Source: Asterochloris sp. CNOR1 (taxonomy: Eukaryota > Chlorophyta > Trebouxiophyceae > Trebouxiales > Trebouxiaceae). From it: a stretch of DNA of 64,000 nucleotides. Shown in pieces: positions 11,201 through 64,000 of this stretch. Positions within the stretch are counted from its first letter, which is position 1; each line of letters starts with the position of its first letter. Location: assembly GCA_963969365.1 (NCBI GenBank), contig OZ017754.1, positions 1,736,001 through 1,800,000 of the forward strand. Reading direction: 5' to 3'. The translations under genes were made by a program, and so were the position numbers. The notes under the pieces were generated by a model, which was not told the origin of the DNA, ran no database searches, and was given only the letters and a program-made list of their open reading frames with translations.

Positions 11201-11962
11201 TGTGCAACTCTGTGTGGACTCCTCACACCTGTCGCAGATTCTGCCGCAGCGGATTGCAGGCGATCCTCACCTGGTGCATGAAGCTCCTGAAGAGCTCATT
11301 GTCACGCTTGAGTCGCTGCACAAAGCGCTTCGGCGCAAGCACCCCAAGACGCTTCCTGTAGGTGGCCATCTGCAGGCACCATCACCCCTTTCAGCGCTGG
11401 TGTTGGGGTTATCTGTCTCTGCCGTGCAGGTTCTGATTGGCGCCTGGACATGTAGATGGGATGCATGCGCTGTGCCCGGGTTGCAGATGCTTCCTGACGT
11501 GCAATGCTGCAGGTGGATGCCTGGTGTGCAGCATCAGTTTAAGCAGCATTGGCAGCATGCATGTCCCAGCCATAGAATGAAGTGCTGCTGCCCTGCGTTC
11601 GACACGCTGGACGCACTGTTGACATGCGCTGCCTCCACAGGCAGACACCCAGACATGGAGTGGCTGCTGCAGAGCATCCGGCTGATGCAGAAAGCACTAC
11701 AGTCCGTCGCTCAACCAAGATACATGCCACCACTTGCCTGTTGGAACAGATCAGCAAGACAGGTGAGGAGGTTCTCCTCAGAGTCGCTGTGCAGCTGTGC
11801 TCCATACTGCAGCACATGCTCCCGGAAGGGGATGCAGTGGTACAGGGCCTGCAACACCGAGTTGGCATAGCAGGTATTGCCAAAGTTCTCGAGGCCCAGG
11901 TATCGCTCATCAGGGTGCAGCTCTGACAGCTGTTTCTCAAGCTTGCTGCCGCTGCCTCCCAT
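8244..11962 (-). CDS. UBP3: Ubiquitin carboxyl-terminal hydrolase, UBP3/UBP4 (USP12/USP46) type
   Basis: Cysteine protease that removes ubiquitin; close to plant UBP3/4 and animal USP12/46. Seven exons read in phase: 11962-11738, 11369-11271, 10820-10652, 10092-9936, 9593-9444, 8825-8689, 8488-8244 (1182 nt, 393 aa plus TGA). The Cys box is GNTCYANS (Cys31), the QDAHDF motif opens exon 3, and the His box GHY is at residues 313-315, followed by TFDDEE with the catalytic Asp. Two CxxC pairs (CLQC in exon 4, CDTC in exon 5) form the zinc-finger fingers subdomain. The start [10 protein letters not shown] matches plant orthologues and fits an N-myristoylation signal. Plant homologues are about 371 aa; the extra residues are a low-complexity insert in exon 3. 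Intron 1 uses a GC donor (CAG|GCAAGT at 11737). By family knowledge activity needs WD40 partners. Confidence 0.95.
8826..9135 (-). repeat. Degenerate minisatellite in UBP intron 5
   Basis: About 300 bp of imperfect repeats of some 35-45 bp occupy the 3' end of UBP intron 5 (9443-8826). On the sense (minus) strand each unit contains variants of CCTGCTGTGTGCAGG. The last unit supplies the real 3' splice site at 8826. Unit boundaries are approximate because the copies are diverged. Confidence 0.7.
9311..9352 (-). other. G-rich tract in UBP intron 5 (G-quadruplex-capable)
   Basis: The plus strand is a C-rich tract. The sense strand of the UBP transcript therefore carries at least four runs of three or more G separated by loops of 1-4 nt (GGGGTGGGG, then GTGGG, then AGAGGGGGG). 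It lies roughly 90-130 nt downstream of the intron 5 donor. Formation of a quadruplex is inference. Confidence 0.5.
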
Positions 11963-12463
11963 GTGACCTTCAGGTGAGGTGTTGCAGCATGCTACCCTGA
12001 TGAGCCTTCAAGCTGAGCTTTCAAAGTCAATGCTATGGCTGCTGGACCAGGATTGGCAGGTCCTACAGTAAGATTTCAGCGTTCGCTTGAGGTCCCAATG
12101 AAAGAAAGTAACAATCGCTAAGAATGCCAGCTGCTGGAGCAGGTGTGGTGCAGCTCGATGTTCTCTCCTTGGTAGCCTGATCTGGCATTTATGGCAGCTC
12201 TCGTCAAGGGTCTTGAAAGGCCATTGAAGTGCTTTCTCCGGCATGTAACGTCATTCGATCTGCGCACAGGCCGCCCATCAAAGTCCCTTTTGTATGAGTG
12301 CTGCACCGGTTGGTCTGGCCCACCACAAGTAAAGAGTGATCTTGGTGGCAATGACATATGGTGGCAAGCCGATTTATGGTGTGCGGCAGAGGCACAATGC
12401 TGAACAAGCAGATGATCCATAACAGATAGGCGGCCCGCATCCCTCGAGGGCGCCGATACTCAG
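11963..12463. promoter_or_regulatory. Head-to-head intergenic region, UBP / GAF-PAS kinase
   Basis: 501 bp separate the UBP ATG (11962, minus) from the proposed kinase ATG (12464, plus). Both promoters and 5' UTRs must fit here. No TATA element or other motif stands out. Confidence 0.5.
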
Positions 12464-15400
12464 ATGGGAGGCTGCCACAGCAGATTGGATGGCTCCAGGG
12501 ACACCTATCGGAAAAGTGCAGAGCGAAAGCGCAAACAGGCCTTTCAGGAAGACAGTGGTGGCCCGAGCGGCATGGTGGAGCTGGGGTGCTTTGATGGAGA
12601 CAAGGTGGGGTACACTGCGCTGCAACATGCAAAGCACGAGCTGCAACATGCAAAGCACAAGCTGCATCGCAGCTGGAGGGGCCACCTTTGGCTTCATCTG
12701 TGTGACAGGCAACCTCCAGAAGGTGGGTGTCACAGGTTGCCGCATGGACGGGAATGTTGGGGGCACCCATGACCATGCTGCTACATGCCAGTGACGCGCA
12801 GCTCTCCCAGCTCTAGGTTTTCTGTCAGGCAGAGGAAGCCCCCTTGGCATAAAAAGCTCACAACTTTGCGGATGCGCCCACGAAATTGTTTGGACTTCGA
12901 AACAGCATCTTCGTGCGTTTGTGCAGGCAAGCCATGCTCACCTGCCCACTGTGCCAATGGCAGACAGCACCAGCATGCACGGCAAATGGATGCTCGTGAT
13001 GGTGCCATTGTCACCTGCTGCACAGCTCAGTCAGGTGTCCTTTACTGCCAGGTCTTGGGGGCAGGGGGGATCTCACCCGGGCAATCCCAGCTCATCTGAC
13101 TGCTTGCTTGACGGCAGCAGCTTCATGCAGGCAAGCTTCAGACAGTAGATGTGCGCGCAGGCACCCATGGCACTGAGTTTCGTGTTTGGAAGGGGGGGAG
13201 CCATCTGATGCAGGATGGCAGGGCATGACTGCTGGATGATGTGGACTGGCATCTGACACGTGCTATGGGACGTCCACTGCAGCAACAATGGCATGCTGCA
13301 GGGGTCACATGCTGCTACTGAGAAAGAGCAGCAGGCCTCCAGCTAGCCGAGGCCTGCTCAGATTTCCCCCACAGGCCCACAGATGGCAGCAGTAGGGCAG
13401 GCCTCAAGACGCCTGGAGAATGACTGCGTTCTTGAGAAGGCAGCAACCCCCTACTGCCCTGCCTGCAGGATGATGTGATCAGCATAGTGGCAGATGCTGG
13501 ATCAGACACCACCCAGTGGGGGCCTGCCCACACCAAGCACCGCCTGGCTGCGTCCAGCCGCCAAGGGTCGGCAGTGGGGCCCTCTCAGCTCACCAGCGCC
13601 AACATGTCTGTCAGCGGGAGGGTAACGCAATGGCTGCAGAACGGTGAACAGTGCTGCAGCGGCACCAGAGCCCATGGTGGTTCGTGCAGGCAAATGGTCA
13701 ATTGCAATGCACTGTGCTGTTGGTGGCCTGTGGCGGTCACTCTGAGAAGCCCAGCCCATGTTGAGCATCCTGGGCCCTGCTCTGGAGGAGCAGGCAGCCT
13801 GTGCTGGACTTCTCAGCATAGCCTTCAGCGGAGCCTTCAGCATACCAGCTGCTGTGCTGCGTGCCATCTAGACCGTCTGTAATATCCCATACAGGCTGGA
13901 GCAGTCAGGCAGCCTGAGTGCCGGCGAGGAGGGCAAGCAATCTCAGGTTGCCACTGATTCACAGTGCCCTCCCAGCTAGCATGCGCACCAGCGGTTGACA
14001 TAGCACATCCAGGACATGGGGCCACTGCCTTGCAGCAATGGCGGGCCGCCTTGCCCTGCTGCAGGCGAGCTCAAGGGGGCGTCTTGCACGACAATGTTCA
14101 CGCGCAGAAATAGCCTGCTGAGCGCAGGAAGCGTGACAACAGCCCAAACACTGCCAAGCATCAGCTCCAGCACCCTGCGGCAGGACAGCATTGGCAAAAG
14201 CGGAATGTGGGACCGCTACCAGGTGTGCAGCCTAGGGTTGATGCTGTTGCAGTTGCAAACGCTGTCTCTTGTAAGTACAACTGTGCTGGGGCAGTGCTCT
14301 TGTGAGCAGCTCATCAGCCCTGAAGCAGAACAGCACTGAGTGCTGGTTGAGGGTGTCACCAGGTATGCAGCTCAAGGATGCTGATTGGTATGCTGTGTTG
14401 GACGAGCGCTGCTTGTCAACAGCCCTTCTTCTCTGCAGAAGGACACCATCGCCAATAGTAAGAGGTGAGATCACTGTCAGGTGCAGGCAAGGAATCAAAG
14501 GCTCCTGCGCTGCCCAGGGTGGTAAGTGCGACAGATTTCTTGGCCAAGGGCCCGACAAGATCGTGCATAGCTACATGATGTCACAGTCTGGGCATGCAGC
14601 AAGCCCTGTCTGCAGCATGACAGTACACAGGGATTTGGCCTCCTCTGAGTGGGGCCCTGCCCTGCTGCAGGCTGTCTATGTACCTAGCCCCGCTCGCAGC
14701 CTGACAGTGCCCAACCCTGTGCCCCCTGGGGCCCAGCAATTTGAGATCAAGGATGCTGGAGCGCACCCGCGCGTGCATCAGATCGCTCAGCTGTGCACCA
14801 GCATCTTTGAGGTGCCCCTGGTGGTGGCAGCTGTGGCCTCGGGGCCGACCAACTACATCTTTGTTCAGCAGGTCAGCAATGGGTGATGCCGCGGCCAATG
14901 GCACTGTGCAGATACAGGTGCCCTGCACTTTCGCTGCCAGCACCCTACAAATGCAGCAGTTGAGCAGCCCAGCAGGTCCCGTTAGCCCAGTGTATCATGT
15001 GATAGCTCATGCACATTTTGCTGTTTGCAAAGGGTTGGCTTCCTGATGATTTTGTGTGTCCTGGTACTTGCGCCCTGGCTGGCTGGACAGAGCACACTCT
15101 GCTGACCAGGGGCTGGCCCAAAGGGCAGGGGCATGGCGGCTGCTGCGTACAAACCCCATGCCAATGCGTTACAATTTTGGAGTTGCCCTGGCTCGGCGCA
15201 CTGACTAGGAGGTGCTGAGGCTGCAGAAGGGGGACCAGAGGCTGGCCTTGGATGCACAGGTGTGGTGGCAGCTGTGCACATGGTTCAGCATGCCCCAGGA
15301 CCAGGAGGTGAAGGTCATTGCCGACTGCCGCCAGGACGTCAGGTGGGGCTCCGACAATCTTGCAGCTGTAGGAGCTCTGCACGCCACACAGGCTGCCCTG

Positions 15401-18400
15401 TACTACAAGGCCATGCAGCCCTCTGCAAGGGTGCCAGCATGGCTTCTGAGACATTTTTGATTGGCAATAGTGCTCTGCTGGCATTACTCTGCTGCAAGCT
15501 AAGGGCACAGTGTTAGCAGCCTACCACTTGCTGCAGGTAAGATGACAGCCTACTGCTCCAGGCCTGCAAGTCACAGCTCTGTACCATGTATTTGTGTGTT
15601 CCAGGCAATGTCCTGGTTTGGGACCAGTTCGCATGTTTATTCATTTTGACACCCTGCAGGGTTGTCAGAGATGCGTGACTTTTGTCAGTTGCACTGCAGG
15701 TTCGGGGACAGCCCCCTGGTTCAGGGCCCACCGCATGTGCAATTCTTTGCAAGCACCCCCATCCTCAGCACCACATGCGAGCGTATCGGCACCCTGTGAG
15801 TGCCCAAGCTGTCTCCAAGCCTGCCTACTGCTTGTATCATCCATGCCGGAAGGTACAAACAGCAGCATGATGCTGCTGCTGCTCAGCCTCGGGGCTCTTG
15901 CTGAAGACGCAGTGTCTTCAGAGAGAGGGAGAAAACTTATCCCTTTGCAGCAGCTGCATTGCTGCGTCCTGCAGGGGCTGATGGCTGGGTGACAAAACCC
16001 ATGGAGCAGCCTCCTTGTGCTGCAGCTGCCCTGTGTGCTTGTCTGCCGCTTGCAGTGCAGGCAGGGCTATCACCTGGCAGGCATGCATTGATGCCTGCAG
16101 GTCCATCCTGGACTGGCAACCACGCGGCCTGGACGCAGCTGGCGCCCATGTTCTGGTCAACCTCAGCGAGCTCCTGATGAAAGGTGAGTCCACCTTCACA
16201 CACACCAACCTGTTCTGCATGCCAGCAGGGGTCCAAGTACAGTGCATGACCTATGACCCTGCTCAATGTAAACCTTGAGTCTGATGCTTTAGTGGCCTGA
16301 CCCCCCTGGCTGCGAAACCTGCAGACCTCAACCAGGATACTGGGCTGTGCAAGCCGAGCCGGACCAGCATCCACATCCAGGAGAGAAGGAGGCAGGAAGG
16401 CAAGGATCATGCGGTGAGCTGCACTGCCCTGGCTGCACACATACAATAAGATGAGCGCTAGCTCTGCATCTGCCACATGTCATGTCACCAATTGTATTTG
16501 GGGGCAGCATGGGGGGACAGCAGTGAGCAGCAGTGCTTTCCGTTCCGGTTGTGGGCAGCCCTGTCAGTTGCAGAGAGGCCCTGGCATGCGACTGCAGGCA
16601 GTGCCTTGCCTGAGCTACCGCGCATCTTGATTTAATGGTGGCGCTGCAGACTACGCGACTTGCTTTCATTGGGCCAATGGGCATGCTGCTGCCATACTTG
16701 CAGCGCTGAGAGCTCTGTTCTGGTGAGCTGGCCACACTGCCAGGGATCAAAGCTTCAATGTAGCAGTACATGATACAGCAATGTGCTGCATGTCACAGCT
16801 GTGATGTCATCAGGGATCGCATTTGGCTGACAGTGACTCAGCAGTTACTCCTTGGGTGCAAGGGATATGGTAGTGGACTGCCATGCTCCTGCGGGTGTCA
16901 CAACAGCGTGGCTCCGCTGCTCAGTCTCCAACACCAGAGGTCTGCCATGTCGCAGGCAGTCCTCTTCTGCAGCACAACGGGGCCTGGGTGGCCCATCCTG
17001 TATGTGAGCGATGAATGGTGCAAGGCCTGCGGCATGCTGGCCAGCAGCGTGCTGACCCAGCCGCTGTGGATCCTGTTTGAGCCACAGACCTGCTCAGAGG
17101 TAGGCATGCCATGCAGGTCGAGAATGCATGGTGTTGCAAATGCAGCCTGGTGCTGCCGGGATGCAAGGCAGGCGCCATCACGAATGCCGCCAGACAAGCT
17201 GCTTGTGTGCATTGCAGGTGCCTGCTGGCACATTCATACGCAGGTCCGCCCATGGAGACTGCCTCCCATGGACACTCAAGCTCACACTGCGTTGCACCTC
17301 ACAGGGCTCAGGGTCATGTGCATCTGGAAGGGGCAGCCCTGTGTCCTTGTGCAGGGCCTGTAGATCCCGCAGCAGGCAGCTCCAGGGCGCCCAATCCCCA
17401 CAGCAGGCAGGGCATTTGGCACTGCCGCTCAACAGAGGGCTTTGCCCTACATGTCAAGCTGCAGGCAGAGTTCCTGCTGCGTTCTGAGATTATCTCCTGC
17501 CTACTGTAGCCCAGTGCTCAATCTTGCAGTGTCATCTGCAGGGCCTGCACAGCAGGGCAACTGCAGGTGACCTTGGGGCTGCCATCTCCATGCTGCAGCT
17601 ATGTGTCCCTTCTCACAACTGCCCTGTACTTGTGCAGGGCCTGCACACTACGCACCAGGCAGCCCCTGACCGCCCCTTCCCCATCACAGGTGATGCCATG
17701 CTGCAGCACCTGCACCAGATGGTGGCCAGAGAGTCCTGGTTTGAGCTGGTGGCTCGCCGCAGGGACAGGCCAGAGGTCAGCTTCAAGATGACCTTCAAGT
17801 GAGAGCCAGGGGCAAGTCTGGTGCATGTGTCATCTACTTTTGGGCAGAGGCAACTGTCGTTGCGCAGCAGCAAGACACAGTCAGCATGCAGGCAGCACAG
17901 GGGCTGCAGGCAGGGTCAAGAGGTGCACAGCCGGCCTGTCGTCAGCAGGCTGGCTGCAGGGGCCTTCATTTTCAGATACCCTGCCTGGCACATTGAGCTG
18001 CAGCTGATCTGGGGAAGAAGAAGGGCTGTTTGTGATTTTGCACCCTGGCAGCCTCTGCATGCTGTGAGGCAGCCTGCAAGCTCCTCTGGCACTGCCTTCA
18101 CCGCCTGGGTGCACCAGCAGCATCTGCCTTGCTGGTACACCATTGCGGTCCCATGTTCAGGTCTTGCATATGAAGGTGTGGAACCCAGCAAAGGCACACG
18201 TTGGCTCGCGGGGTGCCGCAGCATCTGTCTTGTGACTGTCACCCCTTGTTGCATGCAGGCCAGCTACGCATGAGACAATTGAGGAGCACTCCATCAGCAT
18301 CCGTGTATCTTCAGGGCGGACCCTCACAACCAGGTCAGGCACCTGCAGCAGCCATCAGGGAGCATTGCAGATGGCTGGTTTGACCTGTGTGCCTGGTAGA

Positions 18401-32091: not shown

Positions 32092-35000
32092 ATGGGGAAC
32101 TCCTCAGGGCTGCGAGATGAGGATGTGGAGCGCATCCTGTCTGCTCTCAACGCCAGGTAAATTGTGTCTGCTTTTGAGCCTGCTGCAGTTCAGCTAAGAT
32201 GACAGCAGCACAGCAGCACAGCCTCTGGGCAGTCAGCGTTTCCCCTGAGGTGGTGCTGATCTGAATGCCATGCTCTGGGGCAGTGCCATGCAGCAGTGGA
32301 GCCTTGACTGCTGCTGTAGGGTCAGGAAACTTTCCAGCAAACAATGACTTGCAGAGAGGCTAGCAGTGCTGTACTCCATCCCTCCCTGGCTTGCAGGAGT
32401 GCCAGCGGCCTCCACTACTTCGACATGATGGTAGGGGGCGGCATTGTCCTTGCCATCATAATGCTGGTCTACTTTCGCTACCGAAGCACAGCCCTGCGCC
32501 ATCTCATGCGCAGCCGCCAGGCCTTTGCCTATGATGTGAGTGTGGCACTGGGGCACAGCCTGGACATGCATGTCAGCCTGCTTGGCTGACATGTTCAAGA
32601 CCCGTCAGAATCATAGGAGCCCTTCAATGTTGGAGACTCAGCTTTTGCCTACAAACCGTAGCAGCTGGGTTCATGCTGTCAGCTGTGTGAGGTTGATATG
32701 ACGCAGCCCCAATCGTAGATGTGGACCATCCTGCAGTGGAGAGTGGAGGTTCGACGCTAGTGTAGTTGTGCACCTGACTGAGCAGCTGAGACCCCGCCTT
32801 GTCTGACTGCAGGCTCTGAAGGAGGCAGATCCCAAGCTACTCAAGGAGGTCTTGGGCAAGGTGGGTGTACATTTTTGCAGAGGGTTCTGGGTGCTTGTAG
32901 GTGTCTGGACATTTTCCTGCAGGATTGAGGCATTTACTTCACTTCAGCGCAGGCTGCAGGCACTGTTATGCTGCCACAACATGACCACAGAGGCTTAGCT
33001 GGGCCGACCGTCTTGCTGCTCTTAGCGTATCCTGCGCGCATGTCCTGTGCACAGACGCAAATGTGCCTGCTGCACCTCAGGGTCCTGACCCGGCTCCCTG
33101 AACAAGATGTCTGATGCAAGCCAAGCACTGGAAGCAGCATGACCTGGTTGATGATGCAGCAGCATGCAAGACCAGCCTGTATTTTTTGCAATGGCCAAGG
33201 GGTGTGCGCCTGAATCTTCTGGTGCAAGCAACAACATCATAACCTCACCCACGGCAGGTAATGGGTGCAGGCAGACGTGCCCAGCTGGATGACCATGCCA
33301 GATTGGCAGAGGGTGGGCTTCCTGAACCAAATCATTGGTGAGGTCTCTTCTGCGCAGCAGGGCATGTATGGAACCCCAGTGTCTGCTTGGGTGTGTGGGC
33401 ATGGGCAACCTGTTGGACTTGTTGAGTTCGATGCACTGAGCTACTCTGTCTCTGTTACCCACCACTGTGCCAACATGCTTGGGTCTCAAAAAAACGTGGG
33501 GCATCTGGCACTGAATATTGCCTGGCATATGGCACCTTGCATGTCCCTTCACGGTGCAGCCTTTGCTTGCTGCTTGCACAACATGAAGCAGCCTGGACAG
33601 CCACGGCAATGCTCTGCACATTTCACGAAGCAGCTGCAACCACCCTTGTCTGCTGATCATTGCAGTGCTGGCTGCACTGCAGACCAGCTGTGGCCTCATG
33701 TCAACCAGGCGCTGTGTACGATGTGCCGCGCTGAGCTGGAGCCTGTGCTGAAGGACCAGAAGCCCTCATGGATTGCCTCAATCAAACTCAGCAGGTGGGC
33801 GCTCTGTCTTCTGCTGTGTTCAGTGACCGACGTCATCAGCAGGTTAGGCCTCTGCCATTGCGCACCATGGATGCCTCGATGTAGCTGAGCAGGTGATGGC
33901 AGCTGCAAACTCAAGCTCGGATCTCTCCCAGAGTCCGTCAAGCTCAGCAAGTAAGTGCTGCATCATGAAGTTCTGCTGATTGCCAGACACCTGTGCTGTG
34001 CACGACTCCAGCTGCTGGAGCGGACATAGCTGAGCCAGTGCTGAATGCTTGCGCAGCCAGGGCAGCTTCCATTGAGCGTTGTTAAGCATGCTTCTCCGTG
34101 CAGGACGCCCGCTGCCAATACGTGGCTAAGTTGCTGGAACCCCTGCAGGTTTGACTTGGGCAATAGACCGCCCCAGATCAATGGCGTCAAAGTCTACCCC
34201 AAGGCAAGCAGCTGCTCTACAGCATGTCTCAGCTTTACTTTCTCTCCCCTGCTGACGGGACATGATCCGCAAGGCACGACCTCTAAACCTGCTATGCAGC
34301 ATATATAGTCAGGCATTGTTGAACGACAACACCCTGTGCCAAGCTGCGTGCATCACACGTGCAAGGCCTGGCAGTCCCCGTGCATCGTGGCATGCATGTG
34401 CGCTTGCTGCCTCGCTGCCTTCACTGTGCTCCCCTGCCATGCTTTCAGCACTTCTGAATGACATGCTTCGCCGTCCCCTCAGAGCAGAACTCCAGGGGAT
34501 GTGCCATTGGGTCAGGACTGCATTCAACTCAGGCAGCCTTGAACTACTTCGCATACAGCTGTGCGCTGCTGTGCACATAGCACGCCTGACGGTGTTCAGT
34601 CAAAACATGACTGGTGCCCCGGAGGAGGTGGACACCCAATTGGACATCCCAGGCAGGCATGTGTTAGGGCCCCTGCTGACTTCTTGAAACATGTTGTGCA
34701 GAGCAGCACCCCTGAGGAGGTGGACATTGAGCTGGACTTCACATGGGCAGGGCAGCAAGAGGTGGCTCTAGTGGTCAAGCCCATCCCCAAGCACCTGAAT
34801 GTGGCCACTGTGGTCACTGAAGTTTTGTCCAGCATAATCATGGTCAAGGTATGTGAACAGGGCTGCTGCCATGATGATGACTGTGTGGAAGGCGGTGGTG
34901 ATGCTTTGATCAGGCAGCCAGGCAAGGCGGGGCCAGGGCAAGGCTTGCAGCGCTGCTGGCAGGCTTGAGGAATGTACAGATAGCCACATGTGCAACCACC

Positions 35001-41000: not shown

Positions 41001-42916
41001 CCGGCCCCCATGCAGTCTGCCTCTGCGATCCTGCGACTGTGACACCAATGCACAATCAGTGGCTGACAGAGATGCCTGCTGCTGATGTCAAGGACCACGA
41101 GGGCCATCAACATTGGCACAGGCCTTTTGCAATCCAGGCGCTGACAATTGAGCTTGCTGCTGCTGCAGGTGCGGCCCCAGCGGGCGGGGCGGGTGTCCTT
41201 GCTGCCTGTTGGGCACAGCTGTGGCACACACTTGTTAGCAAGTGACCGCGAGGGCCAGCAGCGCAAGCAGACAACTCCTTGCAGCATAGGAGGGCACATT
41301 CAGGGCCTGACAGGGATGCATGCTGCTTCAGGTGCTGCCTAGCAGTGGGGGCTCACCCTAGTGGGGGCCTTAGTGTGCATGGTCTGGGGCTGACGGGTAG
41401 GCCTGCTGTCTTGTGGCACAGCAATGGGCTGACTGGTGTGTCTGTTCATCCATTCAGGTGACCGCGGCATGGGTGGCTCAAATCAGGGTGAGGGTCACCG
41501 TATAAAGGAGAACCGGATGCAGCGCGGGGACAGCGGGCGCAAGAAGGTCATGGATGCCCTCAGAGTGAGCACCGGTCTGCTCAGAGCTGCCATTCAGCTG
41601 AACTCTTGCACCAGCAGTGGGGGCTTGTGCGTGTCACACACCTTGATCTCCAGATGTAAAGCATTTCTGTCCAGACCTCATTGCCTGAGATGACGTGGAG
41701 CCCTCAGCATGCACCCTTGCTGGTTGTGCATGTTCACACTTGCCTGCCTCACTGTTGGTGGGCTGGTGGCTTTCAAGCTCTACGGCTGCTGTTGAGTGGC
41801 TTGCAGCAAACATGATATGCTGGCAGGCTGCAGGTGCACAGCAGCTGTAGCAGCAGTGGGCCATTACAAGCCCAAAGCAGGCCCTTTTGAATGTGGCTAG
41901 TGTTGGTGATGCTAGCAGCCTAATCTGCTGCCTGCGGACATGTTGATTGTGAAGTAGGAGCAGCCCTTAAGGTGCATGCAGTATTGACCAAGACTGCTGA
42001 GCTGAGCATTGCACACCGCTGGAGGCATGTCCTGCCTTGTGTGCAGGGTGGAGTGCTGTATGTCAGAATCACCAAGGCTGTCCACCTCATACACAAACCA
42101 GTCTACAAGGGCAACTTCACAGGCAGCCTAACGTAAGCAGGGCTCTCAATTTGCCCAGCGGCCCAATCTGCTTGGCCTGCTGCCAGATATGGCTGCATCT
42201 GTTGCCCCGAAGCACAAGCTGGGCAGGTCTCTGGGACCTCAGCTGGCTTGACAGAGACCAGGACAGAGTCAGCAGATGCTTTATATAGCCTAATGTTACA
42301 CTGCCACCGCCATGCACAGGAAGGGTGCAGAATTGCCTCTTGAAGCACTGCAGGTTCCTGCCCTGGCTGCCAAGGGGCTGGGCTCAAGCCTGCAAACGCC
42401 ACATGCTCCCCTGCTGCAGGACGTGCAAGGTGATGGTGGGCGGGGAGGAGAAGTTCACAGTTGCAGCTAAGGGCAAGGAGCCTGGCTGGGATGATAACCT
42501 GGAGTTCATTCTGGGGCACTCTGCCACCAGCAAGGCCAACGTGGACATCGTCATCGAGCTCTGGGACTACAAGTACTTTAACCATTTCAAGGCAAGTGTC
42601 CTCTGCAGTGCATGAGTTGGACGTGGCCATGGCAATGCTGCATGTGTCTTTCCCCGGACACATCCACCATGCTGCCGGCCCCCCCTGGTACCAGTCATGC
42701 ACAGTTCCTGGACACAAGTAGTTCAACTTGAACAACATGCAGGCTGGGGTGCCAGACTGATCTTTTTCTCCAGAAGTGCAGGGTCGCTATAGCCTGCCTC
42801 TGGCTGAGGTGATCAGAAGCAAGCAAATGAAGGAGACAGTCACTTTGAAGGACGTCCGTCATGGCCAGCTTTCATTCGAGCTTGCCTGGATGGGCATAGC
42901 AGAGACTGCACGGTGA
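32092..42916 (+). CDS. Extended-synaptotagmin/tricalbin-like protein (TM-SMP-C2-C2)
   Basis: Membrane-contact-site lipid-transfer protein by family. Twenty-two exons close in phase from the ATG at 32092 to the TGA at 42914-42916 (2394 nt, 797 aa): 32092-32156, 32397-32535, 32813-32860, 33271-33337, 33683-33794, 34149-34203, 34702-34848, 35534-35623, 35892-36010, 36276-36375, 36668-36720, 37115-37233, 37755-37900, 38175-38285, 38701-38880, 39483-39617, 39970-40085, 40444-40535, 41458-41564, 42047-42132, 42420-42591, 42782-42916. One N-terminal TM helix (GGGIVLAIIMLVYF, about residues 33-49); SMP domain about 85-285 (WQRVGFLNQIIGDQLWPHV; PPQINGVKVYPK); C2A about 300-420, with Ca2+-site Asps in DIMSDSDPFV and DYDLLNEDDEIG; an acidic/basic disordered linker of about 245 residues; C2B 668-797, lacking those Asps. 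Introns 6 and 21 use GC donors. Confidence 0.93.
34614..34650 (+). repeat. Decayed copy of an exon 5' edge (SMP-C2 gene, exon 7)
   Basis: GTGCCCCGGAGGAGGTGGAC resembles the start of exon 7 at 34702 (AGCACCCCTGAGGAGGTGGAC), about 90 bp downstream, and the similarity continues into TTGGACAT versus CTGGACTT. It lies in intron 6 and lacks an AG acceptor at the matching place. Confidence 0.55.
37402..37446 (+). repeat. Decayed copy of an exon 3' edge with donor (SMP-C2 gene, exon 12)
   Basis: TGCATGAGCTGGACAGCTGG and the following CAGCTGACAGGTGAG match the end of exon 12 (37204-37238, TGCATGAGCCGGACAGCCAG then CAACTGACCGGTGAG) at 30 of 35 positions, including the splice donor. It lies 200 bp into intron 12. 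Confidence 0.75.
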
Positions 42917-44406: not shown

Positions 44407-47400
44407 ATGGAGGCATCATCTGGCATCCCTCCTGAGCTTCATCAGGCCTTGCTAGCAGCATTCCACTCCTATGATGAAGATGGCTCTGGCTCGATCAGCC
44501 TTCACGAGCTAATCACCTGCTTGAGGTTGGTGGTCCCCTCCAGCATCTTCAGCACTGTGGCTAGAACCAGTGAAGTCACAGACATCCCCACATACGGCTG
44601 CAGGGAGCTGGGTGTCAAGCATCTGACAGACACTCAGATTGAGCGCAAGTTCCATGAGGTGAGGGCAGGGGGAACACCTGCGAAGGACTGGGCGTCAGGC
44701 AGCGTCCCTGAATGCAGTCACCTCACCATGCAGCTGCCTCGTCTCCTGGTGGAGTGTCAGGCGATCGCTTGCCGATAGCAACGCCCGGCAGCCCATTTCC
44801 TAGGCAGCACTACGGCCGTCAGCAGCGCTTGCCTCTGTGTGCAGGCAGACCAGGATCGAAGCGGAGTCATTGACTTTCAGGAGTTTGTTGCTCTCTTCTT
44901 TGCCCTGACCAAGAAGAGTGCTCTGGGCGTCCAGGAGGCCAAGACTATCCTGCTGCAGAGGTGTGCACCCTGCGGCCCCATACCTGACCTGTGGCCTGGC
45001 CTCCCTGCCCAGCAAATGCACGCAAAGCCGCCCCAAAACTTCCCTCTCAGCAGGCAACAGCCAGGGCCAGGCTTTGACTTCACAGTCCCCGGCTGCCCCG
45101 TTCGGCCGGTCAACAGGACGCCCAACCAGCCCACGCTCTGTTCAAGGTCACCCCAGGGTTGCTAACCTGCCTGCTGCTGCCCCTGCAGGCCGGTGGACAG
45201 GACACCCAACCAGCTCAAGAGGCTGTCCACCTACCTCATCAGCACGCAGCCCTTTTTCATGCAGCTGCAGCCGGCAGTGGTTTATGATGTGAGTCCCACA
45301 ACTGGCGCTGCGCAGACCCCTGCAGCTGCACAGATGCTTGTTGCAGTGCTGCACGGCAGGCTGCTGTCTTGCTATCCAATGTGCATGAAGGTTGGGCAGC
45401 TGCAGTTAGCATTCTGCTGTCATGCCCGCTTGCACAGCAGCCTGCTGCTGCTACACAGACACCTGCTACATGCAGTAAAACAAAGTGCGTGTGCTGCAGC
45501 TGCTGGCAGCCAACATGGCCCACAGCAATCTGTTGCTTCCAGTGTGCGCTCCAGTGTGCAGGCCGTGCCAGGCAGTGCAGTGTGTTGCGCTGTTGTGTAG
45601 CCGCCTTGTGTAGCTGTCCTGTGGAGTCCACGCAGTGGGGCTTGTTCATGGCCCAGACTGCTGTGTGTACCTGACCAGATGCCAGCCAGATGGTTGTCAA
45701 GACCAGTAGTCTGTCATGCTTCGCTCCTCCCTGCTGCAGGTGTCCCGCTTCCTGCAGCACGCTGAGTTCCAGCCGGGGGAGCTGTTGATGCGCCAGGTTT
45801 GCGAAAGTATCCACATCATCTCTTCCATCTGGGCTCATGTCACCCTTCAGAAATTGTAGCGCACCATCAGGATGGCTGAAATGTGTGCTGGGTCATCATA
45901 GTCGTCACCGACCTCTGCCAATCTGCTTGCAGGGGGAGCGAGGGGATCACATGTTCATCATCCTGGCGGGCACCTGCAAGGCAAGCAGTGCAGCAGGCGC
46001 AGACAGGCTCTGCACATGTTGCAAATGGCGTTACTGTGAGAACAGGCCAGGCACCTGCAGAGAGAGGAGTGCGGGGCGCACTAGGTTGCATGGGAGCTTG
46101 TTCAGAGGGGCTGGTTTGCTTTGCATTGCTGCAGACAGGCACTGCCCACCTGGCAGCGACACCGGTCATCGCCTAGCCCAAAGGGCTTGCAGAGCCAAGG
46201 AAGTCTGCTGTGCATCACTCAATGCTCCGCAGCTGATAAGCACTGCCATGAGATAACACTGCAGTTGCAGTGTCGGGTCAGCCGCTGAATTGCAGTCTGC
46301 CCTGGTGAACTAGGTGCCCTGTGCAGCCTCAGTGCTGACACTGCAGGTGTCTGGGAGGCTTGAGGTTGTGCCAAGGCTGACAATGATTGCACTACCTGCC
46401 AGGTGTGGGTGGATGCAGCCATCAGATCTGAGAACCTGAGGGAGTCCCTCAAGCGCATGAACACCTTTGCACGGCAGCCCACCCTAGGGCCGCAGAGCAG
46501 CAGGGTTGCCACCCTTGGTCGCACACAGACCAGGACTGGGACTCGCAGCATCAGCTACAAGCAGGGATCTGTGCAGCCTGGCTCAATCAATGGGTCGCAG
46601 GTGGGTCCTCTGCTATGTCTCTGCTAGGTCCTCTGCTAGGCCCTCTGCTAGGCCTGCCTTGCCGGGCAGCAATTCCCAGCACCACCTCCAAGCAGCCACA
46701 GGCCAAGCAGTGGCTTGCAGGGCAGGTCTCACCTTGCAAAAAGCTGTCCGCCTGTGACCTTAGACACTGAAGCTCCGCAATGAGTTGCAGGCAGGCGCTG
46801 CAGGGTGTTGTTCATGTCAGAACAGCAGTTTGCAGGCAGCTTCAATCACAAGTGGGCGGCCTGGACCCATCTGTGATTGCATGCAGGTGCTGTGCATGGA
46901 AAGTTGCATCAGTTGTCCCCAGCATGCCAGCCTGTGGCCTTCCTGCAGACCTGAGCGCTTCTCCCCAGCCCTGCATCGCAATGCAGTGCTGACTGACCAT
47001 GGCTGCCTCCATTGCAGGACGACTATGAATGGGAATCAGCGCTGGGGAGGTCCTTGGATAGCACTCAGGCTCAGGGATTGGGGGACTTTCAGGCAGCGTC
47101 GCCGCGCTTTAGTCTGAGAGAAGCGTTGCAGAGCAGCGTGCCTGAGGAGGAGCAGAGTGGCAGCAGGGTGCACAGCAGGAGCGGCACTCCCGAGCAGGGA
47201 ACGGGGCAATCGCAGGAGGAGGCAGGGGGAGTGCAGGAGAGTTGCACTGGGCAGATGCCTGTCAAAGCCAGGTGCACTGGTACCCTTGATGAGTGCACAG
47301 CACGCAGCAGCAGCAGCAGCAGCAGCAGCCAGACGGGGTGCAGAAGCCTGGCACTGGACTGCAGACAGCCAAGTTCAATAGGGAATGGCAGCCTGAATGA

Positions 47401-53400: not shown

Positions 53401-55020
53401 ATGCAGTGGCAGTCTGCATTGGGTGGTGTGGTGTACTAGCTGCTAACACTGCATGTTCAGAGCGGGCTCAGCAGGTAGGCAGCACAGCACCCCCTGCCCA
53501 TCCCCTTCCCTCCAGAGCAAGGTGCTGGATGAGGCATGCTTTATGAGCTGCTACAATATTGGCAGTCCTTGCCCTCAACACATCAATCTTGTGGTGGTTG
53601 CAGTCAGCCTCAAGGAGGGCTGCGCTCAACAGCAACATGGCGGCCGGACATGAAGCGGCATCACTGCAGCTGCCCCTGCCCTGTTGCAGAGTGTGCGTCT
53701 CTGGCTGTGCAGGGCAACCTGGTGACGCGACAGGAGGGCGCCAACCCCAGGCAGGAGGCAGGTGACAGTCAGACTCAGCATCAGCAGGGTGCAGCAGCAC
53801 AGCCCCCCCCTGCAGCCCAGCAGGCATGGCCAGCAGAGGTGTCAGGTGTGCAGGCGCCTGTGTCAGCCCACGGCAGGCCAGGTGGTGGCCCCCAGGCCCC
53901 TCAGGCTGCCCTTTGGGGGGCTGCGCAACCGCATGCAGCAGGACGCCCACAGACAGCCCCCCTGAGCTCCCAGCGCCCCCTCTCCAGGGCAGCTGCGCAG
54001 GCTGGCAGCCAGACGCATCAACCAGCGGCAGCCGTCAAGCAGCAGAAGGAGAGTATGCTGGACGACATGGACCTTCAGAATCTGGGCTGTAATGGGTGGC
54101 TGGGCATCAAAGACGTCCTTGGCAGCCGCCCGGCGACGGCAGCAGCAGGGGTGGGCCGACAAGGTGGCTCTGCAGCTCAACCCAACAGTGCCAGGCGGCG
54201 GCCGCGGCCGGCCAGTGCTGGGGCTCAGTGCAGGAGTGGGGGCAGCCGTGTGACTTATAGTCCCAGGCTGTCGGCAAGGCAAGGCGTGGGCCCAGACCAG
54301 CACTGGCAGGCAAGCTCTGCTGTCCGCTACTTTTGCTGCAGATCTTGGCAAAGGCAGCAATACCACACTGTCAGCCAGAGAGGCTTGCTTACTGACACTG
54401 GGGCAGCGCTTGAGCCTTGCAGTGCTGTGGTCTGCCATCCCATATCTCAAGCACATGTGTGAATAAGTCTTTGGCACCTGCACAGCGCCAGAGTTGACCT
54501 CCTACCCAATGCACGAATAAAACTTACTAAGGTTGATGCACTCCATCAGACTCACACATTGGCCATCCTGCAGGAAGGAGTCCTGGGCCGGATGCAGTGG
54601 CTGCAGGCCCAGCTTGAGGGGCCTGCACAGTGCAGTTTCGGTGCCGCCAAGATGCACAGGCGCCCCACTGCTGGCGCACAGGGAGCCTGTCCCCGCTCTG
54701 CAGCGGCCCGCCCCATAACCATCGTGAGTGCCGATTAGCAGCAGTTGGCACCAGTGTTTGTGTTGAACTGCAGCTCGTCCAGACATATTCTGGCTGGCCG
54801 AGCATAAGCAGACTTGCAATCAGGGTGCACATGATGCTCTCTCCCCTTGCTGCCAAACTGCTTCTCGCTGACACCCTCCTGAGCCAGCCAGGCACATGAG
54901 GCTGAGGCACAATCGCTGCAGGTTGTCCCGCAGGCGCTGCCGGCCTGGTCAGAGCCCATACAGCCCGAGATGCGCATTGAGCATGTCTGGAGCGGCCGGC
55001 ATGCCTCTGTGCAGGAGTGA
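44407..55020 (+). CDS. EF-hand protein with three cyclic-nucleotide-binding domains
   Basis: Putative sensor of Ca2+ and cyclic nucleotides with no catalytic or channel domain visible. Phase-checked exons: 44407-44525, 44604-44658, 44845-44960, 45189-45288, 45740-45796, 45933-45980, 46403-46600, 47018 onward, and the last two at 54574-54723 and 54922-55020 (TGA); middle exons partly assigned. EF-hand 1 loop is DEDGSGSISLHE and EF-hand 2 loop DQDRSGVIDFQE, both canonical. CNBD 1 starts in FFMQLQPAVVYD (45189-45288) and has its phosphate-binding cassette GDCVGEAALLAEGGTRSASI (48311-48414). CNBD 2 starts near 49500 and has GELALADSRPARRSATI (about 50884). CNBD 3 starts near 51538 (VQFLRQVPIFCDTPS); its cassette YVGEDCLLTG lacks the Arg, so it is probably non-binding. 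Disordered inserts include a Ser8 run from CAG repeats. Introns at 45981 and 54310 use GC donors. Confidence 0.83.
47305..47329 (+). repeat. CAG/AGC triplet run in coding sequence
   Basis: Eight consecutive CAG units, read as AGC (Ser8), in the disordered insert of the EF-hand/CNBD protein. A candidate for length polymorphism. Confidence 0.9.
49138..49430 (+). repeat. Two decayed copies of an exon 5' edge (CNBD gene)
   Basis: CTGCAGGCCAAGACCCCTGA (49141-49160) and GCTGCAGGCTGCTGGCCACG (from 49402) both resemble the acceptor and start of the real exon at about 49501 (GCTGCAGGCTGCTGGCCAAG then CCCCCTGAAGAGC), which opens CNBD 2. Confidence 0.6.
51041..51068 (+). repeat. Decayed copy of an exon 3' edge with donor (CNBD gene)
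   Basis: TGCCGCACTCTCCTGGAGCT plus GCAGGT repeats, with one mismatch in about 25 bp, the end of the CNBD 2 exon at 50983-51008 (CCGCACTCTGCTGGAGCTGC then AGGT), donor included, 57 bp downstream. Confidence 0.75.
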
Positions 55021-55441
55021 TGTTTCTGATTGACAACTTTGGTCTCCCACCTCCCTTGTCTCCTGGCCCTGAGTTGGTTACTTATGTGGAGCAAGCTCGA
55101 CATATGTGCATCTGGTGTTGAACACTGTCAGCATACATAAATTGCCCCACGAGTCTCAAGTGATGGTCCTGCTGGCCCACAAGATTTGTGCAAGTAGATG
55201 CTGCTTTGTGACAGGCAAGGGCTACATCTTTGTCCTCTATCTCAGTAATGTCATGTACAACAGAGCTTGCATGCATCATCATGCAGCGTAGGTCTGCTTA
55301 CAATCTGTGTGACAGAATCAGCTTGTGATGTGTGTGCACAATTTTTATTGATTGATGGTCCAGGATTTCATTTTGACTGCAACTCAAAGGATCCGTTCAA
55401 AAATTTGTACAAACTCCAGGGCAAGAGGCATCATGTCCTCA
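55021..55441. other. Tail-to-tail intergenic region, CNBD gene / NTF2-like gene
   Basis: 421 bp containing both 3' UTRs and the minus-strand TGTAA at 55298. No gene is seen. Confidence 0.5.
55298..55302 (-). promoter_or_regulatory. TGTAA polyadenylation signal for the NTF2-like gene
   Basis: TTACA on plus is TGTAA on minus, 140 nt after the stop of the NTF2-like gene. Confidence 0.5.
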
Positions 55442-58400
55442 TTATGCTGCAACACCGGCCTTCTCAGGAACTCTTTTGAGGTACTTGACACGCTCAGAAG
55501 GCAACAACTGACGGAAGCCCAGCACAGTCTTGATTTGCTGAAAGTCATCTGCACCACCAGACAAGCAAGTCACCGTGGATGCACAAGTGAGAGGCTTAGA
55601 TGAATGCTGAGCAACAATATGGTACAGACAAAGAAAGCTCAACACAGCTCACCAAAGACCAAGAGGTTCAGACCATACAAGGATACACCATCTGGACCGC
55701 TGCCCTCCATTTTGCCCTGCAACCAATGGAGACTCAAGGGCTGTACCACTTAAAAAGCATGCTCCTGCGCAATGCACCACTGCGCCTGCGGTTCCACACT
55801 TTTCAGGGTTGCCTGAACCCCACAGGCTGGACAGCTGCTGTCAGCCATTTGGAGCTCAGTGTGAGCCTCACCTTACTCTCCCAGTACACAAAGGCCTTGT
55901 TGGCATGCCGGTCAACGGCAAAGGCACTGGAGCCGCCTGTCCGCTCATACTTGCTGTACAGCCCCTCAATCTGCAAGCAGTAAAGAGCCACATGTCAGGA
56001 GAAAGCACTTGTGAGGACAGCAGTTACCCGTCACAGCAGCTCAGCAGAAGCCTTGCCATTTGCTTGAAGCTGTCCCTGCCCTTGAGCTCCTGACCCACAA
56101 TAGGCGATATCTCACGAACATCCTTGCTCATGATTTCGTCAGCAGCCGCTGGGTCGCCTGCATACATACAGCTACTGTCACCACCAGCCGTAACATAAGG
56201 TGGCCGCTCGAGCCAAAGGGCAGGCACCGTCTCAACTGGGAGCAGCTACAGCGTGAAGGAGAGTTGCACTCTCAAAGCTTCAGGCTTCATCGCTGAGGCG
56301 CCGTGTCAGGAAACTTGAAACTTGAGGAGGGCACCCCATACTTTGATGCTCAGCCCCTATGCAACCACCAACAGGACTTGCACCTACCTGTCTCCCAGAT
56401 CTCAGAGAATTGCTGGGCAGACTCCAACAGGTTGGCTGCTCTGTTGTCGTCCTCCTCAATCTTCTCCTGTTTGGCCAGGTCCATGACATCATAACTGATG
56501 CCTGCAATTAGGGCCAGATGCTCAAAGGCCTGGCACAGACTATGTTCCTCATTTGGGGTGGCTGAGCTAGTACCTGCATATTATGCTTACAGCTTGGGGT
56601 GGTTGCACATGTAGACCATGGAATGCACCTGTACACACAATGCACTGCACAGGGCAAGCTTGAGCCCATGCTCATAGCAGCGGGCATTGGGAGTTGCTGG
56701 CACAATCAGCATCAGTTTAGGTGGCTGTCACAAGCATCATGCTGTGGTGCTTCAAGACGGCCTGGGACCGCAACAGCTGACCTGTGCCCATGCCAGGATC
56801 CTTGAGCATGACCTGCTTCTCCTCAGGTGTCAGCTGAGTCAGGAAGTGGATGTCTGAGATTTTGCCCTCTGGGTTGATCACATACCTCCAGATGGAGGCC
56901 TTGCTCTCATTGCTCTCAGCTGCCTCGCCTGACTTGGGCTTCAGGTCCTGCACAAATCACTAAAGAGTTTTCATGACCAGCCACTACAAGTGAATAGCCT
57001 GGCAAGCTGCGCTAGACTGCACATCAACCAACTTCAGAGTTTCAAAAGCAGCAAAGCGACACTGATGTGCCTGCCATGGCCCGCAAGCTTGCACAGCAAT
57101 CCATTCCGGAGCTTGAGAAGCACCCATGGTGGGGAAGACATGTGGCTGTGCAGGTAGATACCTGGTGCAGCCAGCAGTGAAACATGCTGCTTCCCGTCAC
57201 GTCATCACCCTTGGCAATGGTCTCGTGGTGGTAGTCATAGTTGTCAATGTACATGCGCAGGGTCTTCTTGACCTGCACAAGCCACCAGCCAGGATGAGTG
57301 TGAAACTCAATTCCACGCAGCACTCTGCTTCTGCCACCCTTTGGCTGCACGCCAAATCTGCTGCACCACTGAGCACAAGATGTGGCTGGGTGTCAATTTC
57401 TGAAAGCACAGTCCATGTACGCCCTGTGGCTGTGCAATGTGCATTGATGCCTTCTGAATGGCAGGAAGCTGCCAGGCTGTGCATGCTTGGCTGCTGCCTC
57501 ATTGCTCCTCCAGCACATCCTGAAACAGGCGGGCTACATCATTGGGTTGGAGGTACCTGCACTACCTACCACACTCACTTGCTCTACCCTAAATCATGTC
57601 CTGCCCGACATGTTTGGACGACTGTGCACAATACGTTGCAACTGATGCGTCACTGCCAGCAGAGACCTGTTGCAGAGACCTGTTGTCAAAATTCATCTGC
57701 TCAGCCCGGTGCAGTGCATATGTCATCTTGCAGCTGGGCTGCACCTGCTGGCATGCAACCATGCAGCTGCCATTCTCAGGAGGCCCCTGCCCAGCCCCTT
57801 GCACATCCCTATCTAGCATGCTCTGAGTGCTACATCACCCCACCTCCTCAGCTCCATGCACGTCCTGGTCCAGAATGAGCAGGTCCTTGTGCAGAGTCAC
57901 GTTGGGGTCCACAACAGCGTCAAAGCTGCTGTAGTCCTTCTGCCCAAAGAAGGTGTCCATGCTCTTTGCTACCTGTAGGGAGCAGGGTGGCAGCATGCTG
58001 ACAGCTGCCAGGGTTGAGGTGAGGTTGCAAGCTGTGATACTAAAGCACAGGGCTGCCTGCTCAGCAGCTCACAGGCGGTGGCAGTGATGACCGGCGCACT
58101 GGGCTGCAGGGTAGCAGCCTTTGGCAGTGTGCAAAATGCGCACCCGCAGGCACGGCCAAGCATGATGAGGCCGTGACACATGGCATTGGGTGCCACAGGA
58201 GATGCCCTGCCAGCTTCAGGGGGGCCAGGCATGCTGAAAACAGGACAGAAACAGTAGAACATGACAATCCGCCAATGAGGCTGCCATATGTCCATGTGAA
58301 TGCAATGCAACTGCTTACAGCCAATCATTGCACAGCCCAGATGGTTGCTGCCTCACCTCATGCATTCTCTTCTGCTTTTCAGGCTCGGCAACTGGAAACT

Positions 58401-58769: not shown

Positions 58770-59124
58770 CCTGACAGCGTCAGGAGTGAAGCGGCAGGCT
58801 GGTTCTGATGAATGCAAATTGACCGTGTGATGTTGTGGCTTCACCAAGGGCAGTCAAACCTGATCTGAGACTTGCTCTTAGACCTACTCAGCACCGATAT
58901 AAGCATGCAGGAATGACATAACAGAGGCCGCAGCAGAAGAAGCTCACTGGTGGATCTCGGCAACCTAGATGCGAGCAGAGAATTGACCTGTTCAACAGCC
59001 TTGCAAAGGCATCGACATGATAGACATAAACGAGAAAATCAAAGTGGACGAGCTTTGCCACAATGGGTTGGATGCTGCTGTCTCTCTTTCACCTCCCAGC
59101 TGAAGACCCCAGTGAACGTGAAAC
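58770..59124. promoter_or_regulatory. Head-to-head intergenic region, NTF2-like gene / unrecognised plus-strand gene
   Basis: About 355 bp upstream of the NTF2-like ATG. It would act as a divergent promoter if the plus-strand ATG at 59125 is real. No motif is recognised. Confidence 0.35.
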
Positions 59125-62100: not shown

Positions 62101-62177
62101 GGTTCTGTCTCCTCACAGGTTTCGGAGCAAAAACAGGCCAGGGAGGGACAGCGGGCGACGCTGAAATACGGTCATAG
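59125..62177 (+). CDS. Candidate multi-exon gene, function not recognised
   Basis: Several plus-strand segments look coding and are bounded by plausible splice sites, but phases were not all closed. An ATG at 59125 opens MSLSVGFSEATQVLQQTAST and a Leu/Ala-rich stretch to a GTAGGT donor near 59398. Segments at 59470-59575 and 59612-59650 both begin with GCTGCAGGCGGCACA. 60072-60210 reads TGRYMARVPMTLDECSQRSQ. 60721-60990 reads GLVSSMQHAAMSMGLLSTAG and ends at GTAAAC. 61190-61372 ends in SSSTSQSEANPR at GTGAGT. 61675-61756 reads YALHAHDEKLLRLLMLRPKK and may join a last exon at 62120-62177 (GFGAKTGQGGTAGDAEIRS, TAG). The helical, Leu-rich character recalls large repeat proteins of the VPS/HOPS kind, but this is not evidence enough to name it. 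Strand alternation also predicts a plus gene here. Confidence 0.35.
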
Positions 62178-62266
62178 GCAAACACCCACTGAGTTCAGCG
62201 TTGCATGGGAACAGACTGAGATTGGGTTCTCGAAAACAGAATGCTGAGGCTGACAAGTACATTCAC

Positions 62267-62271
62267 TTACA
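62267..62271 (-). promoter_or_regulatory. Possible TGTAA signal after the lipase gene
   Basis: TTACA on plus (TGTAA on minus) 10 nt past the lipase stop. It is closer to the stop than usual, so only tentative. Confidence 0.3.
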
Positions 62272-62280
62272 AGGCACTTT

Positions 62281-64000
62281 TTAAAGGGGCGAAACAGCTG
62301 AAGGATCCTGCCTCAACTTTGCAAAGCCCTCAGGACTCCTGCTGCGACCGAGGCTGCTGCTGTGCCCAAGGCTCCCGCTGCGACAATTCTCGAGGCTGCC
62401 GCTACTGCCAAGACTGCCGCTGCGGCCGAGACTGCCGCTGCGACGCCCGTCCTTGGAGGGGCGGTCTTTGCGATAAAAGGCCAGCTCTGGCGCATGGGAG
62501 TTCTTGAGGTGCACCTTAGAGGGATGGGAGGTCGCCCAGCGAGCTGCCTGCAGCAAACCAGACACGGCTGTCAGGAAGCTGCAGCTTGCCAGGGTAGGTG
62601 CGTCAACACTGCGGGGCCCAGCATCAGCCCTGCAGACCTTCTAATGTTGTCCAGCAATCAGTTGGAGCAACAGCACTCAGCCGGTGCATCTCCCCAGCTC
62701 CCGTACTCCCAAAGTCAAACAGCTGGCTCAGGGCAGAGGCGGCACAAGCCTCATCCTCAGATCGGATCATGTGTTACAAGCACCCTAAAGTCAGGTCGCA
62801 CTGTTTCAAGATATACACCTGGCAGAGATCACAGGCAGTGCTAGGCCTCATCCTGGACACCACCCGTGCTCGAATCAACCCTGGGGGGGGACTCACCCTG
62901 CGCATCTCCCCCAGCTCCATCCCCAGCTGCTCCTCAAAGAGCTGTCGCAGGGCAGGGCTCTCTTCAGCCATGCGGACGACCCCCTTCATGCCGCCCCGCA
63001 CCCGCTTGCAGCGAAACTGGTTCAGCACTATGGTCAGCAGGGACTGCCAGTACCTGCTCAGCAGGTGGTCCGACACGCTGTGACCTGCAGGGCCAGGAGG
63101 GGAACCAGCGCTTCAGCATCATAGGTTAAGTACTCTGACAACACCCTGCAAGCACTTGTGGTCCCCGCAGCCAGGTCTTGCCTGCAGTGCAGCATTTCGC
63201 TTTGCAGCCTGGAGCGCTGAGGCATGATTGTGAATACTTCAAAGATTTTGTTGGAGGAAGCTGCCGCATGGCACGGCTGCATACGCAATGGACTGTATGT
63301 ACGACAAGGGCCACTGCACAAGTTCCCAGACAAACGGCGGTCCAACTCAGCCCAAAGGCAGCCGTGTTGCTGTGCACAAGGCCGACGTCAACTACGTTTG
63401 CCCACCTGCCAGGGTGCGCTGCAGGTTGGCCTCTGCATACGAGGGGCGCACAATCAGGTCACCCTTCACATTGATCATGACCCGCTGGCCTGGTCTCTTG
63501 AACAGGAGGACAAACTTGGCCGTCCTCGCCACAGCGTCCTGCAGACAGTGCTCCACGTACAATCACTTTCTGAGGAACGCAGCCCCAGCCCTTGTACATC
63601 AAATTAGCCCAGACTGCTGGGGCCCACGCGAACGTCACCAGCATCACAAGTCGCAGCCAGGCGTGTACTAGAAGCTGCAGAGAGACCGCATCCAGCTTGC
63701 CTGATTGTTGATGAGGCCCCAGGTATCTGGGACCATACGGTTGTACTCCTGGGCAAATGCGTGGTTCCCTGCAGGGGCCATGCCAGCGCAGCCATGTGAG
63801 CAAGGCGCGGGGTGTTGCGGAGTATGGGTGTCTCCAGCCAGCAGCAAGAAGCGGCCCTTTGCAGTCGCACAGTCAAGTGTGTAGTGCTTACTGACGAGCG
63901 TGCACAACTGAATGGAGCTCAGGTCGGCAGAGGTGCAGATGGTCACCAGTCCTGGGAGCGCCGAATGTGTAGCAGTTGACCTCATGCTGGCTGGCTGAAT
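62281..64000 (-). CDS. Class 3 (fungal-type) lipase, C-terminal part; 5' end off the window
   Basis: Phase-linked exons 63768-63701, 63538-63406, 63084-62897 and 62547-62281 (TAA). The first two read GNHAFAQEYNRMVPDTWGLI then NNQ-DAVARTAKFVLLFKRPGQ, and then VMINVKGDLIVRPSY. This is the region after the nucleophile elbow in lipase class 3 proteins, where (V)GN..F...YN..VPDTW..IN..D is conserved; the Asp in NNQDAV fits the catalytic position. The GXSXG serine motif must lie in exons beyond base 64000 or unassigned near 63800-64000. Next comes a helical HSVSDHLLSRYWQSLLTIVL segment. The last exon is a Ser/Arg/Gly-rich tail with repeats of RSGSLG. The intron at 63700 uses a GC donor. Substrate (acylglycerol or polar lipid) cannot be told. 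Confidence 0.8.
62330..62450 (-). repeat. Imperfect coding repeat (RSGSLG units)
   Basis: About six imperfect units of 12-18 bp (CGCAGCGGCAGTCTCGG type on the minus strand) encode an RSGSLG-rich, low-complexity tail in the last lipase exon. Confidence 0.7.

Follow-up and report, generated by a model that had tools for sequence, protein, structure and literature searches.

About 3–4% of the predicted introns of Asterochloris sp. CNOR1 seem to begin with GC, approximately three times the plant mean (1.2% of introns, as given in PMC6310983), and these are very probably ordinary U2-type GC–AG introns, accounted for by a strong donor context and base composition. The lineage thus seems to tolerate GC donors, as suggested in the original prediction, which had listed seven of them in one window, namely, the 64,000-nt stretch of contig 9 analyzed here (1736001–1800000; 58% GC). 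The computed evidence consists of the donors themselves, their rate in 314 kb, the homology fit at nine sites, and the canonical 5′ end of U1. All donors considered below belong to introns predicted by a gene finder, with or without protein homology, rather than derived from transcripts.

The genome comprises 56,383,464 bases in 21 contigs, and the sample consisted of the window and five 50 kb blocks, positions 600001–650000 of contigs 1 to 5, with coordinates fixed ahead of any inspection; all rates hence refer to 314 kb out of 56.4 Mb. The two-strand gene finder with explicit lengths was written anew and is independent of the gene models behind the original prediction; its training was seeded with eight pieces matched to the Pfam UCH family and continued as self-training on the window and the sampled blocks. 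The resulting models have approximately ten introns per gene (587 in 60). When GA, GC, and GG were given equal starting weights in the first 264 kb, the trained model settled at 467 GT, 40 GC, six GA, and two GG donors; the corresponding GC share, 40 out of 515 introns when a single donor matrix served all dinucleotides, was not kept as an estimate in view of the decoy tests described below. Donors of the form [AT]G/GC[AG]AG, where the slash marks the cut, are referred to as strict, or consensus-type, GC donors. AG at the 3′ end of introns is imposed by the model and hence provides no independent evidence on the acceptor; the learned acceptor word is TGCAG. The 3′ splice site in the window and blocks is very fixed, the positions before AG being T in 93%, G in 95%, and C in 98% of cases, with C in 61% ahead of TGCAG.

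Strict GC donors account for 24 out of 602 introns in the whole 314 kb (4.0%, 95% interval 2.7–5.9), 16 out of 467 in the five blocks outside the window (3.4%, 2.1–5.5), and eight out of 135 in the window (5.9%; window versus blocks, p = 0.21). Thus, the originally claimed rate, four out of 52 introns and far above approximately 1%, was correct in that the share is raised, to 3–4%, but overstated its size. By block, the counts are 1/90, 4/97, 2/90, 2/91, and 7/99. Counting only donors with support above 3 leaves 17/602 and 11/467, which after division by 0.69 gives 4.1% and 3.4%, respectively. Against the plant mean of 1.2%, as given in PMC6310983, the binomial p-values are 5e-7 (24/602), 0.001 (17/602), and 0.03 (11/467). 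In the paper passages covered by a literature search, no GC–AG rate was given for a trebouxiophyte alga. Six strict GC donors out of the 24 belong to one USP9X-like gene model of 49 exons, on contig 5 (613247–637558), a possible case of clustering.

As a decoy test, the gene finder was trained on GT only in the 314 kb, after which the 15 other dinucleotides were admitted one by one, each with a matrix learned for it. GC yielded 45 calls among 602 introns, 23 of them above support 3 and 15 above 5, with a gain of 165.5. The decoys yielded between 0 and 20 calls above support 3 and between 0 and 5 above 5; the top decoy, CA, gained 136 with 81 calls, of which 20 exceeded support 3, followed by TG and CT. 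The calls of these three decoys may, as it seems, be carried by the acceptor word TGCAG. Under a matrix fixed to GT, in 264 kb, GC had 24 calls (nine above support 3, four above 5) and the decoys two to 32 (0 to 3 above 3, 0 to 1 above 5), CA outnumbering GC in calls, 32 versus 24. Restriction to [AT]G/xx[AG]AG retains 24 GC calls, 17 of them above support 3, and at most nine and two, respectively, for any decoy. The GC calls outside the strict form number 21, with six above support 3 versus 0 to 3 per decoy; a few of them may be real, and hence the true rate may be slightly higher. GA calls are no higher than those of other decoys (two above support 3).

When all dinucleotides were treated on equal terms, with the GC weight and the GC-learned matrix imposed on each of them in words [AT]G/xxAAG, GC gave 22 calls from 284 words, 16 above support 3, and 14 decoy dinucleotides pooled gave 22 calls from 1373 words, three above support 3. 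This is an approximately 25-fold excess of GC per word above support 3, and, given the pooled decoy call rate, false calls are expected to number about 4.5 among the 22 for GCAAG and 0.6 among the 16 above support 3. Across five training variants, there were 23 to 25 strict GC donors and 54 to 69 GC calls in all. Sensitivity was estimated by in silico conversion of 130 random GT donors: 119 of them were called after conversion to AG/GCAAG (90 above support 3), and 66 after the T-to-C change alone (39 above support 3). A genome-wide search with the pattern CAGGCAAGTN{20,50}NTGCAGG gave 150 matches, compared to zero for the reversed pattern, a control not matched in composition; it was dropped, since by a rough estimate nearly all matches at such short distances are due to chance.

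In the window, GCAAG is indeed present at all seven claimed places, at 34204, 42592, 45981, and 54310 of the plus strand and at 11737, 56056, and 63700 of the minus strand. The title of the original prediction gives AG/GCAAG for all of them, and its text has AG or TG before the cut; six sites read AG/GCAAG, and the donor at 56056 is TG/GCAAG. The main setting called six of the seven, all except 54310, and the same six window sites were called in each of the five training variants; the stricter setting, which applies the GT donor matrix, retained five, with 45981 replaced by the GC donor 45997. The site 54310–54311 (plus strand) is not supported as a GC donor, being called in none of the main, variant, and GT-matrix sets, and forcing it costs 4.83 log units. 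Hence, five or six of the seven claimed donors hold up, 45981 being weak and 54310 failing.

Several of these introns can be compared with homologous proteins. In the minus-strand gene for a USP12/46-like ubiquitin protease, intron 1 (11370–11737) begins at 11737 with ACAG/GCAAGTG (support 9.05); the spliced junction aligns to USP46 without gaps, and the Pfam UCH match scores 90.6 bits with the GC donor versus 63.6 when the best path avoids this donor by using CAT/GTGCTG. Two UBP loci on different contigs have near-identical protein stretches, which suggests a recent duplicate. An extended-synaptotagmin-like (SMP-C2) gene on the plus strand contains two of the introns: one in the SMP domain (34204–34701; CAAG/GCAAGCA, support 6.67), with a gapless junction relative to E-Syt2 and 62.3 versus 53.1 bits for SMP_LBD, a second SMP family being indifferent (48.2 versus 48.2), and the other in a C2 domain (42592–42781; CAAG/GCAAGTG, support 5.0), where Pfam C2 scores 27.9 bits and the GT alternative at 42596 gives no match at E 0.1. 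The intron of a SnoaL/NTF2-like gene (55971–56056, minus strand) begins with AATG/GCAAGGC at 56056 (support 3.36), and SnoaL_2 scores 31.4 bits with GC versus 15.1 without it.

Close to the right edge of the window, a minus-strand intron (63539–63700) begins with TCAG/GCAAGCT at 63700 and has support 9.65 from the gene finder, which is its source of evidence; neither version matches Pfam, and a PDB search yielded no credible match. For the candidate in an EF-hand/cyclic-nucleotide-binding gene (45981–46134, plus strand; CAAG/GCAAGCA, support 2.32), both the donor position and the acceptor are doubtful: alternative paths take GC donors at 45985 or 45997, and the cNMP_binding score is 29.7 bits versus 31.2 for the alternative, itself another GC donor. 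Two calls were absent from the original prediction, an intron at 2112–2296 of the minus strand with CCAG/GCGAGCA at 2296 (gene-finder support 6.6), and a weaker candidate at 16400–16649 of the plus strand (GAAG/GCAAGGA, support 1.67), whose acceptor varies by run (16703 or 16649) and which is not called with the GT matrix.

The GC-donor model and the best path lacking that donor could be compared by Pfam at six sites, four of them in the window, and the fit is better with GC in six out of six (UCH, C2, SnoaL_2, SMP_LBD, Pescadillo_N, B56), the alternatives being GT donors at five sites and exon skipping at one. The two sites from the random blocks are those of Pescadillo (157.2 bits with GC versus 133.0) and B56, which has a GCGAG donor (211.9 versus 159.7); both junctions are gapless. 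So are the GC junction of WDR33 and two of the USP9X-like gene, also from the random blocks, bringing the number of gapless junctions, together with USP46 and E-Syt2, to seven. A second Pescadillo GC junction falls in a poorly aligned tail, and a third one of the USP9X-like gene lies beside an unmatched stretch. Altogether, nine of the 24 strict GC donors are supported by homology, four, namely, 45981, 63700, and the second Pescadillo and third USP9X-like junctions, were examined without a verdict, and the remaining 11 are outside the comparison; as the compared genes were chosen for holding GC calls, this is evidence for the reality of the donors and not for the rate. At one GC donor of the USP9X-like gene (contig 5, 622656–622740, minus strand), the model places a microexon of 45 bases, with no homology, after an intron of 40 bases, and a longer intron skipping the microexon is equally likely.

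These comparisons make it extremely improbable that the GC donors are an artefact of gene modelling, with the true introns using nearby GT donors or skipping exons. Such alternatives can be constructed: when the GC donor was forbidden at 11 sites, the path moved to a nearby GT alone at seven, skipped an exon at two, took another GC donor at one, and a GT plus a GC donor at one; moreover, 54310 is unsupported, and decoy dinucleotides yield calls too. However, the alternatives lose or add residues that homologues retain, with the Pfam score dropping at all six comparable sites, the substitute donors are poor, e.g., the CAT/GTGCTG mentioned above and AAA/GTCTAC, and the GC calls above support 3 exceed the pooled decoys about 25-fold per word.

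The original prediction also considered that GC donors could be regulated weak sites. Their retention for alternative splicing or intron retention is very unlikely in our data, although alternatively spliced genes are described as enriched for GC donors in human, nematode, and Arabidopsis (PMC2490688, PMC7242645), and the strict GC introns are shorter than the GT ones (median 198.5 versus 278 nt, p = 0.02). In-frame retention, requiring a length that is a multiple of three and no stop, is possible in none of the 24 strict GC introns versus 28 out of 557 GT introns, which lends this idea no support, and several GC introns interrupt conserved domains, those of Pescadillo, WDR33, and B56, so that their retention presumably would break the protein. 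Phase 0 is found in 18 out of 24 strict GC introns and 297 out of 557 GT introns (p = 0.04).

The 5′ end of U1 snRNA, whose inspection had been proposed together with the original prediction, is canonical: ATACTTACCTG is found in five out of five full copies, and a sixth, degraded copy retains ATACTTACCTG. This favors ordinary U2-type splicing, helped by a strong donor context, as the best explanation, and speaks against an altered spliceosome, in which U1-associated proteins (e.g., LUC7) or other components would actively accept GC. Such an alteration is unlikely, despite the single LUC7 locus and the fact that GC accounts for 23 out of 49 GNAAG donors. Among splicing proteins, the search covered LUC7, and the only locus it found in the genome (two matches) is on contig 1, 1789301–1791408. 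The search for U12 and U6atac gave no match, and such a search does not show absence. Approximately 55–70 bases before U1, the three copies whose upstream regions were read have a common stretch, ACCC(A/G)TACTT(A/G)AGG, perhaps an snRNA promoter element.

The donor context of GC introns differs sharply from that of GT introns. At position +3, GT donors have G in 410 and A in 76 out of 557 cases, and A occupies this position in 22 out of 24 strict GC donors; the GC share is 23 out of 49 in GNAAG donors and two out of 195 in GNGAG donors (Fisher p = 1e-16). Detection bias does not explain this: when 560 GT donors were mutated in silico, the 392 detected ones included 149 GAG and 19 AAG, and the 35 real GC calls obtained with the same matrix included three GAG and 16 AAG. 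Outside positions +2 and +3, the 35 GC calls (some of them false) pair with U1 better than the 392 detection-matched GT donors, 5.54 versus 4.89 positions out of 7 (p = 3e-4). In this respect the donors do have the strong-pairing form ascribed to them in the original prediction, except that A at +3 largely follows from base composition.

Indeed, intron cores contain 402 GCAAG and 61 GCGAG words, and the excess of AAG among GC donors relative to these background words is not significant (p = 0.13). Before A, the C/T odds in intron cores amount to 7.0, and before G to 0.42, yielding an odds ratio of 16.8 (9.0 in intergenic regions), and the corresponding ratio for donors, C/T at +2 by the base at +3, is 85 (95% CI 19–383), or 69 (15–312) after correction for false calls. 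Throughout the window and the five blocks, CpG is depleted, its observed/expected ratio being 0.49 for coding and 0.33 for non-coding regions, and this strong depletion may reflect cytosine methylation.

Base composition on its own, with C and T at +2 almost neutral and the GCAAG form mirroring word frequencies, is a somewhat unlikely explanation. It agrees with the non-significant deviation of GCAAG versus GCGAG from background words and with the core odds ratio of 16.8 set against 85 (19–383) or, corrected, 69 (15–312) in donors. At the same time, C at +2 is still approximately seven-fold under-used, with 23/26 GCAAG- to GTAAG-type donors versus 402/66 in the background, and the better pairing of the GC calls with U1 extends to positions beyond +2 and +3. 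As a related and tentative possibility, on balance somewhat doubtful, the spliceosome might hardly tell C from T at +2 in predicted donors of the GNAAG form. If so, the GT rule would hinge on the third intron base, the penalty for C would be only about five- to nine-fold versus background word odds, and the overall rarity of GC–AG introns would stem mainly from that of A at +3.

Taking the pairing and composition data together, we favor tolerance of C in strong donor contexts, shaped by base composition. U1 would tolerate the single mismatch at +2 because the remaining donor pairs well, with AG before the cut, a purine at +3, and AG at +4/+5. Two forces would then decide which GC donors persist. 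Regarding composition, CpG depletion and the rarity of GTA would leave GCA as a frequent word, and a donor with GCG would be prone to decay toward GTG; regarding selection, the pressure for pairing would retain C at +2 mainly in strong contexts. There is no need to invoke special machinery or regulation of GC donors.

GC–AG introns with strengthened donors are an already established U2 type (PMC2490688): in the mammalian GC donors described there, which make up under 1%, the rest of the donor is nearer to the consensus, compensating for C at +2. The remainder of the Asterochloris GC donor is close to the consensus as well, but here base composition visibly shapes the donor context. U2-type GC–AG introns of plants likewise combine the GC donor and AG acceptor with an otherwise consensus donor (PMC6310983, PMC7072748), the GC and its consensus context being found in the predicted donors here as well, although their mean share in plants according to the former source is 1.2% versus the predicted 3–4% in Asterochloris sp. 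CNOR1.

Among algae, the account of Emiliania huxleyi reports GC–AG at 56% of 241 manually mapped junctions, its authors pointing to the genomic GC content of 65% (PMC4028052). Both are GC-rich algae with raised GC–AG use; however, GC forms the majority there, whereas in Asterochloris, with 58% GC in the window, GT still dominates (24 strict and 45 total GC calls among 602 introns). The GC–AG share of Asterochloris sp. CNOR1 is thus between the plant mean and E. huxleyi, as these sources give them. Dinoflagellates, for which G(C/A)–AG and other borders of non-GT introns are described (PMC5029490), are also an algal lineage using donors other than GT, but in Asterochloris sp. CNOR1 GA is called no more than other decoys.

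The coupling between positions +2 and +3 provides a simple genome-wide test of base composition versus selection in splice-site rules. For Asterochloris sp. CNOR1 itself, gene finders restricted to GT would misplace approximately one donor in 25 to 30, and such misplaced donors delete or add conserved residues, e.g., in the ubiquitin protease and B56 genes.
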